Part shown: positions 3,195 through 48,668 of the stretch, piece after piece
Numbering within the stretch: the first letter of the stretch is position 1
Layout of the letters: the number at the start of each line of letters is the position of its first letter
DNA from: Oscillospiraceae bacterium
GTDB lineage: Bacteria > Bacillota > Clostridia > Oscillospirales > Acutalibacteraceae
Assembly: GCA_015066345.1 (NCBI GenBank)
Contig: SVOQ01000006.1
Location: forward strand, 41,035-105,034
DNA: 64,000 bases
Direction: 5' to 3'
Made by a program: the position numbers and the translations under genes
Notes under the pieces: generated by a model
Told to the model about the DNA's origin: nothing
Databases searched by the model: none
What the model saw: only the letters and a program-made list of their open reading frames with translations

Positions 3195-4157
3195 TTGGCA
3201 GGAAAATACTCAGTAGCATTAAGCAAAGTTATCAAGGCTCATTCCCTTGAAACAATATATATGCCTGACAAACCCGAAAGCGAATTGGTAATCCGTTCCC
3301 AGGACGTTAACCGTCCCGGTCTTATGTTTGCAGGTTACGAAAAATACTTTGACCCGTTGCGTGTTGAATTCGTAGGTCTTGCTGAGATGAGCTATCTCAC
3401 TGAGCTGGACGAAAATACCCAGCGCGAAAGGGTTGAACTGTTCTTCAGTCTTAAACCGCCCGTTGTAATTATTACCCGTAATATTGACATATTACCCGTA
3501 ATGCTCGAAATGGCTGAGAAATACGAAGTACCCCTTCTCAGGACTGCCGAGCCCACATCGGAAATTATGGCAACCCTTATATCCTATCTCAATACCGAAC
3601 TTGCGGAGCGTATAACACGTCACGGTGTTATGGTTGAGGTTTACGGTGAAGGTATACTTATTTTAGGTGACAGTGGTGTCGGTAAGAGTGAAACCGCCGT
3701 TGAGCTTATTAAAAGAGGTCATCGTCTTATTGCCGATGATGCAGTTGAAATCCGTAAGGTTTCATCCAGAACTCTCGTTGGTGCTGCACCCGATAATATC
3801 CGTCACTTTATTGAGTTACGCGGTATCGGTATAGTTAACGCCCGAAACATTTTCGGTATCGGTTCAGTTAAACTTACCGAAAAAATCAATATGGTAATTC
3901 AACTTGAGCAATGGGACAGCTCAAAAGCATACGACAGGTTGGGTCTTGAGGACGAATATTTCAATATTCTCGGTATCAAAGTTCCCGCTACGGTTGTACC
4001 CGTAAAACCCGGTCGAAATCTTGCCATTATCATTGAGATTGCGGCAATGAACAACCGTCAGAAACGTATGGGTTACAATGCGGCACGTGAGCTTATGCAA
4101 CAGTTGGGTATGGGCGAGGTATATCCCGACCCTAAAGAATTGGAAGTATGGCACTAA
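3195..4157 (+). CDS. hprK: HPr kinase/phosphorylase (TTG start)
   Basis: Bifunctional enzyme that phosphorylates or dephosphorylates Ser46 of the PTS carrier HPr, the central switch of carbon catabolite repression in low-GC Gram-positives. The 320-residue protein has the N-terminal HPrK domain and, from about residue 150, the kinase core with P-loop GDSGVGKSE and HRLIADDAV, then the signature region ELRGIGIVNARNIFG. Translation starts at TTG, 7 nt after AAGGAGG, since no ATG fits the conserved N-terminus. It heads a run of same-strand genes. Confidence 0.97.
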   Translation: MAGKYSVALSKVIKAHSLETIYMPDKPESELVIRSQDVNRPGLMFAGYEKYFDPLRVEFVGLAEMSYLTELDENTQRERVELFFSLKPPVVIITRNIDILPVMLEMAEKYEVPLLRTAEPTSEIMATLISYLNTELAERITRHGVMVEVYGEGILILGDSGVGKSETAVELIKRGHRLIADDAVEIRKVSSRTLVGAAPDNIRHFIELRGIGIVNARNIFGIGSVKLTEKINMVIQLEQWDSSKAYDRLGLEDEYFNILGIKVPATVVPVKPGRNLAIIIEIAAMNNRQKRMGYNAARELMQQLGMGEVYPDPKELEVWH

Positions 4158-46901: not shown

Positions 46902-48260
46902 TCACCCCAATGCAGGAATCATTGACTTTGCAACACCGAAATACACTAAAAGTGAAACGGCGTCAACTATTGTCGTAATAAAGGGACTTGCCATAACTGC
47001 AGGGTCGAGCTTCAGTATTTTTGCCAATATGGGCAATACACAACCAATAATTTTCGCACATATAACCGTAGCACAAAGTGTCAAAGCAACTACAAGTGCA
47101 ACCGTAATATCGACTCCGTCAGTTTTGAGAAGCATCTGGTCAATTAATATCATCTTCACAAAACACGCTACGGCAAGGGAAACACCGCAAAGAAGTGAAA
47201 CGCGGATTTCCTTCCACATAACACGTAAAACGTCTTTAACCTCAACTTCACCTAAGGAAAGACCACGTATTACCGTAACTGATGCCTGACTGCCGGAGTT
47301 ACCGCCCGTACCCATAAGCATGGGGATGTAAGCCGTAAGAATAACTACTTTAGAAAGGGCATCTTCAAAAGATGAAATAATAATACCCGTAAATGTTGCG
47401 GAAAGCATAAGTAATAATAACCAAGGTATACGCACCTTCCACAAATCCCATACGGAAGTTTTAAGGTAGGGCTTATCCGTGGGGGCAATAGCCGCCATTT
47501 TCTGGAAGTCCTCTTCTGCCTCTTCCTGGATAACGTCAATAGCGTCGTCAACCGTAACAATACCTACAATGCACTGTTCTTTGTCGAGAACGGGAATTGT
47601 AAGAACGTCATATTTATTAAATAACTGAGCAACCTCTTCTTTGTCGGTTGAGGTTGTAACAGTTATGGGGTTATCATCCATTACATCCGTAACAAGCTCG
47701 TCATCATCACAAGTAAGTAAGTCCATTGCGCTTATAGTACCTAATAACTTGTGCTTTTCTATAACATAACAGGTGTTAACCGTAACAGAGTCTTCACCCT
47801 TGGATTTAATTTTCTTAAGTGCATCACCTATGGTCATTGTGGGAAAAAGGCTGATGTACTCAAGGGTCATAATACTACCCGCACTATCCTCGGGATAATT
47901 GAGAATAGTATTGATAACCTGTCTTTTATCCCCTGCCGCAGAAAGCATACGCTCAACTACGTTTGCGGGCATTTCTTCAATAATGTCTACGGTATCGTCA
48001 ATAAACATATCATCCATAATGTTTTTTAACTCACTATCCGTAAACGCCTCTACAAGGACTTGTTCCTTTTCAGGCTCAAGGTATGTGAAAACCATTGATG
48101 CACTCTCTTTAGGAATAAGCCTGAAAAGTAAAACCAACTGTTTTTCTTCAAACTCGGGAAGCAAGTTTGCTATGTCAACAGGGTTCATTGTGTCAAAAAT
48201 GCTTTTGATAGCTTTATATTGCTTTTCGTTTAAAAGTCTTTCAAAAACTTCTCTTGTCAT
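46902..48260 (-). CDS. mgtE: Magnesium transporter MgtE
   Basis: Mg2+ channel of 452 residues. The N-terminal helical domain (about 1-125), two CBS domains (about 135-255, with PEDSAGSIM and ITVTTSTDKEEVAQLF) and a C-terminal channel part with five spans are all present. The pore segment reads MGTGGNSGSQASVTVIRGL. The CBS domains sense cytoplasmic Mg2+. The ATG follows AGGAGG. The leader of about 320 nt suggests RNA-level control. It heads an operon with the phosphoesterase and GDPD genes. Confidence 0.96.
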   Translation of the reverse strand: MTREVFERLLNEKQYKAIKSIFDTMNPVDIANLLPEFEEKQLVLLFRLIPKESASMVFTYLEPEKEQVLVEAFTDSELKNIMDDMFIDDTVDIIEEMPANVVERMLSAAGDKRQVINTILNYPEDSAGSIMTLEYISLFPTMTIGDALKKIKSKGEDSVTVNTCYVIEKHKLLGTISAMDLLTCDDDELVTDVMDDNPITVTTSTDKEEVAQLFNKYDVLTIPVLDKEQCIVGIVTVDDAIDVIQEEAEEDFQKMAAIAPTDKPYLKTSVWDLWKVRIPWLLLLMLSATFTGIIISSFEDALSKVVILTAYIPMLMGTGGNSGSQASVTVIRGLSLGEVEVKDVLRVMWKEIRVSLLCGVSLAVACFVKMILIDQMLLKTDGVDITVALVVALTLCATVICAKIIGCVLPILAKILKLDPAVMASPFITTIVDAVSLLVYFGVAKSMIPALG

Positions 48261-48579
48261 TATCCGTTCCTCCTTTGCTTTTGCGATGTAACCGGGTAAT
48301 CATCGCTTTTACTCAGAATCAGGTAACGGGGGAATGCAAATAAAAAAACCGAACCAAGGCATTTCACCTTTGATTCAGCGACACAAATATTGCATTCATT
48401 ATTAAATGAACGCACAAAATTAATTATTGAAAATCCGTGCAACAGTACCGTTGCAACGGAACATCAGTGTCGCCGTTTTTATAAAAGATGCCACTTCGCC
48501 CATGTCCGCTACTGCCTGAATCCATCGTACTGTCACACTCCTTATTATTAATATAATATTAGCCTTTACTCAAAGCCCA
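48261..48579 (-). ncRNA. Structured mgtE leader RNA with intrinsic terminator, riboswitch candidate
   Basis: Promoter-to-start leader of about 320 nt. It contains an outer helix (48442-48448 with 48527-48533, 7 bp), a hairpin CCGT-tgca-ACGG, a 9-bp hairpin GCGTTCATT/AATGAATGC, a long-range 7-bp helix (48378-48384 with 48467-48473) next to the terminator stem, and an 8-bp helix enclosing the terminator (48332-48339 with 48390-48397) that competes with the hairpin at 48392-48413. Position before a Mg2+ transporter suggests Mg2+ control, but the M-box sequence landmarks (such as GTTAGGTGAGGCT) are absent. Confidence 0.6.
48342..48376 (-). terminator. Attenuator terminator in the mgtE leader
   Basis: GAATCAAAGG / CCTTGGTTC pairs with a G-T wobble and one bulge, loop TGAAATG, then GG and seven T. 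It lies about 80 nt before the mgtE start, inside the leader, so it must be conditional. Confidence 0.7.
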
Positions 48580-48585
48580 CATTTT

Positions 48586-48614
48586 AATATACCCTAACAA
48601 AGCACCTTTGTCAA
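48586..48614 (-). promoter_or_regulatory. Promoter of the mgtE operon
   Basis: TTGACA, 17 nt, TATATT on the minus strand. It places the start near 48579 and so defines the long leader. Confidence 0.75.
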
Positions 48615-48635
48615 GAATTTAATGTCTTAAAAAAC

Positions 48636-48668
48636 AAAATAAAAAAGGGAGTCGAAAGACTCCCTTTA
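48636..48668 (-). terminator. Terminator of the 48681 gene
   Basis: AAAGGGAGTC/GACTCCCTTT around GAAA with a T-run on the minus strand, just ahead of the mgtE promoter. Confidence 0.85.

Follow-up and report, generated by a model that had tools for sequence, protein, structure and literature searches.

Control of mgtE, whose product ranks among the most widely distributed Mg2+ transporters, is to our knowledge little understood in Clostridia apart from the M-box. The mgtE locus examined here lies in a 64,000-nt stretch of DNA (the window) from an Oscillospiraceae bacterium, and it raises the question of how its long leader governs the gene. A first-pass annotation, made from the letters of the window, favored an unnamed riboswitch acting through a conditional terminator, and listed control by a leader peptide as an alternative. 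Our comparison of related loci strongly supports the alternative, and production of the transporter probably depends on how a tiny gene within the leader is translated.

A structured leader precedes mgtE

The product of the gene scores 468 bits against TIGR00400, for which the cut-off is 233. Of the elements that had been sketched for its roughly 320-nt leader, the promoter, the SD-led short ORF, the long-range helix, and the terminator are present (Table 1). The promoter has 11 of 12 consensus matches. Promoter-like matches by themselves occur at chance level (4 found versus 3.1 expected), and congeners carry the same promoter upstream of their leaders. The leader open reading frame (ORF) begins 12 nt downstream from AAGGAG. 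The terminator comprises a stem at about 48378–48349 and a U tract at 48348–48342, 81 nt 5′ of the mgtE ATG. As had also been proposed, a long-range helix lies next to this terminator. The helix, termed P1, pairs CGGCGACAC with GUGUCGCUG and is conserved. Overall, the leader folds more stably than its dinucleotide shuffles (z −2.76; 0 of 100 as good), and the genome holds a single copy of it. A small hairpin at 48560–48577, close to the predicted 5′ end of the transcript, is perhaps a 5′ stabilizer; two congeners (L002 and L003) have GGGUU..AACCC-like counterparts.

Table 1. Features of the mgtE leader, in window coordinates
Feature	Position	Strand	Remarks
mgtE, Mg2+ transporter, 452 aa	46902..48260	−	TIGR00400, PF01769, PF03448, CBS
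Sigma-70-type promoter TTGACA-17-TATATT	48586..48614	−	Also 5′ of the leader in congeners
Shine-Dalgarno (SD) AAGGAG of leader ORF	48538..48543	−	AAGGAGTGTGACAG conserved in most congeners
Leader-peptide ORF, 33 codons, MDSGSSGHGRSGIFYKNGDTDVPLQRYCCTDFQ	48424..48525	−	Family of ORFs, 83/124 mgtE loci
Conserved CGA Arg codon (codon 10)	48496..48498	−	CGA 65/65, frame-locked
P1 5′ strand (codons 17–20), putative antiterminator strand	48467..48475	−	Covariation and swap test
P3 hairpin within P1	48391..48414	−	Sequence not conserved
P1 3′ strand	48376..48384	−	Final nucleotides are part of terminator stem base
Intrinsic terminator hairpin and U tract	48342..48378	−	
SD AGGAGG of mgtE	48269..48274	−	

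A conserved leader ORF accompanies Mg2+ transporter genes

Congeners were collected by MgtE protein similarity and their upstream DNA was compared. The peptide start MDSGSSGHGRS and its SD are kept in 11 loci of the genus (L001–L011, where L001 is the window), and the peptides of seven others (L012–L018) differ by codon-sized insertions or substitutions. The comparison was then carried to 124 mgtE loci, made up of a family survey and a set of 80 loci whose records name Oscillospiraceae, Ruminococcaceae, Lachnospiraceae, or other Clostridia in their titles. The names in this set are rough because the genomes are mostly metagenome-assembled. An SD-preceded short ORF lies within 420 nt upstream of mgtE at 83 of the 124 loci. 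Dinucleotide shuffles predict 1.05 such ORFs; the reverse strand yielded 0 and a downstream control yielded 2. The counts are not independent events because some loci are closely related.

The consensus of the leader peptides is MDAGSSSGTxxGRS. Conservation is limited to roughly the first 12–14 residues, and the C-terminus and overall length vary freely. An acidic amino acid (Asp or Glu) occupies position 2 in 85 of 85 leaders, a count to be read with the fact that an acidic residue 2 is part of the search pattern. Synonymous choice is also biased: Ser5 is encoded by AGT in 59 of 65 leaders, as is the Ser following the conserved Arg in 36 of 38. The bias at Ser5 may reflect pairing with element B, described below. 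No Pfam or NCBIfam model matches the 33-residue peptide of the window, for which zinc-ribbon models gave the only, sub-threshold, matches.

When DNA was searched with a pattern for the ORF and the downstream gene was ignored, 34 of 35 inspected sites preceded mgtE or a Mg2+-translocating P-type ATPase gene. Genomes of the family accounted for 23 of 24 such sites; elsewhere in the order, each of the 11 inspected sites lay before an mgtE homolog. Both ATPases that were scanned are nearest to the Mg2+-translocating models TIGR01524 and PRK15122, with scores under the full-length cut-off because the sequences are partial. A strict form of the pattern applied across the class matched only the genome of the window, and the distribution was therefore assessed within the family and order. 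Together, the counts support the view that the short ORF codes for a conserved peptide and is linked to genes for Mg2+ transport. One genome (G128) carries two mgtE genes, L023 and L033, each preceded by its own leader ORF of this family.

The ORF and the M-box occur both together and apart. Each of the six ATPase leaders scanned has an M-box upstream of the ORF, and so do the mgtE leaders L034/L158 (the same locus), L050, L161, and L137. About a third of mgtE loci lack the ORF, and six such loci in the named set carry an M-box instead. In L137, a Clostridiales-1 RNA (RF01699; 2106–2263) sits between the M-box and the leader ORF upstream of mgtE, and because of this position may belong to the mgtE leader. 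A GA-cis RNA is close by (3923–4007).

A rare arginine codon is conserved within the ORF

The Arg of a (Gly/Pro/Asn)-Arg motif is encoded by CGA in 65 of 65 leaders of the mgtE-anchored set, a count independent of any pattern that contains CGA. By comparison, CGA accounts for 6.5% of Arg codons across the mgtE genes of this set and for 3.8% across ORFs of the window. The codon ranges in position from 9 to 14. Even so, among the 81 leaders that contain a CGA, the first one falls in the frame of the ORF in 68; both the range and the frame count take in ten leaders originally found with a CGA-containing pattern. Further along the ORF, CGA has no frame preference. Some leaders, with KPK or VPD, lack the codon, and a subgroup of the genus (L014–L017) has AGA instead, with the peptide MDAGGSCSHARNKIRYFGG or near it. 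In this subgroup P1 is also entirely different, and the helix masking the mgtE SD is at its strongest.

When a tRNA with a UCG anticodon is absent, CGA is decoded through inosine. Anticodons UCU, ACG, CCU, and CCG were seen among the Arg tRNAs of the genome, and tRNA-Arg(UCG) was not among the tRNAs read. CGA should therefore be decoded through inosine in this organism. In some genera the CGA can also join RNA pairing, so its conservation need not reflect decoding. A route through TrmD has been proposed for regulation by mgtL (PMC6335274). The equivalent m1G37 route is at odds with the CGA codon here, because the tRNA-Arg(ACG) of the genome has A37 as the base after its anticodon.

A conserved helix, P1, may compete with the base of the terminator

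In the genus of the window, codons 17–20 of the ORF pair with the base of the terminator to form P1. With the register set by hand, 134 of 144 cells in the alignment are standard pairs, and two-sided changes occur at seven of nine positions. Mean pairing energy is −15.9 kcal/mol for each leader's own strands versus −11.4 kcal/mol for swapped strands, and none of 20,000 permutations was as good. The helix starts 22–23 nt past the first base of CGA in L001–L013 and at a similar spacing from AGA in L014–L017, which, judged from the size of the ribosome footprint, would place it just outside the reach of a ribosome with either codon in its A site.

Formation of P1 strips about three terminator pairs beside the U tract in most congeners. 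What is left of the hairpin ranges from about −1 to −5 kcal/mol in the majority of leaders and reaches −8 to −9 in two; for the window leader, L002, and L003 the remainder amounts to −5 to −9 kcal/mol. In L006 and L016, P1 is missing from the minimum-energy fold. Because P1 costs the terminator only its bottom pairs, these models make a role as antiterminator plausible rather than proven. One congener, L004 (genome G018), keeps the leader peptide and has neither a recognizable terminator nor a P1 partner. Two other pairings were tried for the genus and rejected. An antiterminator formed by ORF codons 2–5 and the terminator arm gave p values mostly between 0.06 and 0.6, with two exceptions, and a helix masking the mgtE SD as the main step was non-significant against shuffles except in L015–L017.

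In other genera the ORF is predicted to pair with an anti-SD element

Terminator-like hairpins occur in only 7 of 61 non-redundant leaders from other genera. In these leaders, codons 3–14 pair with element B, located directly 5′ of the transporter SD, with a mean z of −2.5 versus shuffled B. No swap among 20,000 was as good for pairing of the ORF codons with B (A:B), and the same was true for pairing of B with the transporter SD (B:SD). Swaps matched for GC content and length point in the same direction. Kinship and common base composition can inflate such tests; the pairing partners nonetheless differ by lineage. A test at the wobble position of codon 4 was uninformative for A:B (27 of 61). 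At least half of the nucleotides of B are common to both pairings in 80% of leaders. This overlap and the swap tests support a model in which ORF codons and the transporter SD compete for one anti-SD element in mutually exclusive pairings.

A proposed mechanism of ribosome-mediated attenuation

We consider it reasonably likely that the leader is a ribosome-mediated attenuator of mgtE. In this model, RNA polymerase transcribes the leader with its conserved ORF, and freely running ribosomes would cover the 5′ strand of P1 or keep it unwound. With P1 blocked, the base of the terminator would complete beside the U tract and transcription would end before mgtE. A ribosome that is held on the conserved codons, with the rare CGA the likeliest site, or one that drops off early, would instead leave P1 free to pair with the terminator stem at its base, and the shortened terminator would allow transcription of mgtE. 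Outside the genus, the ORF would mostly act on translation, through pairing of its codons 4–14 with the element that masks the SD. Here codons 4–6, right behind a CGA-held ribosome, would be available to pair with B. The simplest reading for both arrangements is that free-running translation turns the transporter off, and that holding the ribosome, or losing it early, switches it on.

Low Mg2+ is the probable signal; it may render either CGA decoding or the early nascent chain unreliable. This proposal stems from the genes controlled, the tandem M-box, and the precedent of Salmonella mgtQ. A more specific form holds that the weak inosine-adenine wobble at CGA is the Mg2+-sensitive step, such that failure to decode it at low Mg2+ after MDxGxS..G selects antitermination or release of the SD. 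We regard this form as doubtful.

The sign of control could also be reversed, with Mg2+-replete ribosomes arresting at CGA to keep the gene off and the loss of arrest in low Mg2+ turning it on. The geometry in other genera is compatible with this arrangement, because the strand that frees the SD (codons 4–14) lies partly under a CGA-held ribosome. Several congeners also allow codons 2–5 to base-pair with the arm of the terminator. Against the reversed sign, the latter pairing is mostly non-significant, and the P1 strand of the genus lies right downstream of a CGA-held ribosome, which favors the on state. We consider the reversed sign unlikely.

It is decidedly unlikely that early drop-off at acidic residue 2 is by itself the sensor, with CGA serving only RNA pairing or spacing. 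In Salmonella, Asp2 of mgtQ destabilizes ribosomes and thereby frees the ribosome binding site of mgtB (PMC8092293), and the acidic residue 2 of the leader peptides would fit the same use, even though the search pattern required it. What drop-off does not readily explain is a frame-locked CGA, at an invariant synonymous site, anywhere from codon 9 to codon 14.

The riboswitch originally favored would consist of a P1/P2/P3 aptamer that directly detects Mg2+ or a different divalent ion and controls the terminator, with the ORF incidental. Two features recommend it: P1 closes a branched domain next to the terminator, as in many riboswitches, and the gene downstream encodes a metal transporter. 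An Rfam 15 search of 48240–48640 found no family at gathering score and gave only chance matches at a permissive threshold. Covariance-model searches at gathering score for the M-box (RF00380) found none in the leader and none elsewhere in the genome, while the same search was positive in 15 of 120 genomes of the family and in a Bacillus subtilis control. The reported absence of M-box landmarks is thus borne out. Comparison with relatives, which had been proposed as a further check, shows that the pairing of P1 is kept and that the sequences and loops of the P2 and P3 hairpins inside it drift among congeners. Moreover, the conserved stretch codes, with an SD and an in-frame CGA, its conservation follows codons, and the ORF is retained in other genera, which mostly lack the terminator. 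Given the coding conservation and the drifting hairpins, we set the aptamer aside as very improbable.

Finally, the conserved peptide start shared by many genera might suggest a small protein whose target is the transporter, with no cis switch, but this is also very improbable given that only about 12–14 residues are conserved while length and C-terminus are free, that the RNA of the ORF is matched to the remainder of the leader, and that nearly the same peptide precedes two unrelated transporters.

Relation to known regulatory leaders

In the leader-peptide attenuators of erm and cat genes and of amino-acid operons, a ribosome stalled on a leader ORF picks between alternative RNA pairings. 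The leader described here would use the same principle, and it has two features of that class, namely a conserved, SD-led short ORF and, ahead of the transporter gene, an intrinsic terminator or a structure that masks the SD. It differs in that there is no drug or run of codons for one amino acid as signal, but a single rare codon within a conserved peptide.

The mgtL, mgtP, and mgtQ leaders of Salmonella and its relatives likewise place a short ORF before or between Mg2+ transporter genes and form alternative RNA structures (PMC8092293; PMC6335274), and mgtQ shares the acidic residue at position 2. In those systems the efficiency of translation is inverse to transporter expression, as we propose for the window leader. 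In contrast, the present family has the peptide MDxGxS..GR with a conserved CGA rather than Pro codons, occurs in Clostridia mainly before mgtE, and ends in a terminator or anti-SD element rather than Rho. Pro codons of the mgtL type (positions 3, 5, and 7) are absent from the window peptide, which has no Pro in its first 22 residues.

The M-box also exerts cis control over mgtE and Mg2+ P-type ATPase genes, and in several genera it stands in tandem with the ORF, but the window leader has neither M-box sequence nor a conserved aptamer. A parallel in logic is the mycobacterial M-box with uORF2 (rv1805A), which combines a conserved small ORF, a Mg2+-controlled leader, and anti-SD/anti-anti-SD pairing (PMC12810186). 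That peptide is reported to be specific to mycobacteria and its M-box controls the uORF (PMC12810186), whereas most leaders of the present family lack an M-box. The mgtE motif SRC-65-1 is another structured RNA upstream of mgtE and a riboswitch candidate, but it is reported exclusively from Thioalkalivibrio, has the start codon at the base of a large P4 stem, and was not classed as a uORF (PMC11109978). The leader appears to work like leader-peptide attenuators and the Mg2+ leader ORFs of Salmonella, and is a member of none of the families tested.

Implications for Mg2+ sensing

A search of open-access papers found no description of this leader ORF or its peptide before mgtE, and the family of ORFs that precedes Mg2+ transporter genes in many related gut bacteria has apparently not been described before. 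If our reading is correct, a leader peptide common to two unrelated Mg2+ transporters would constitute a second, ribosome-based route of Mg2+ sensing in these gut bacteria. The conserved rare codon leads to a specific claim, namely that decoding of one codon reports cellular Mg2+. Should this hold, the codon–anticodon interaction would itself be the ion sensor.
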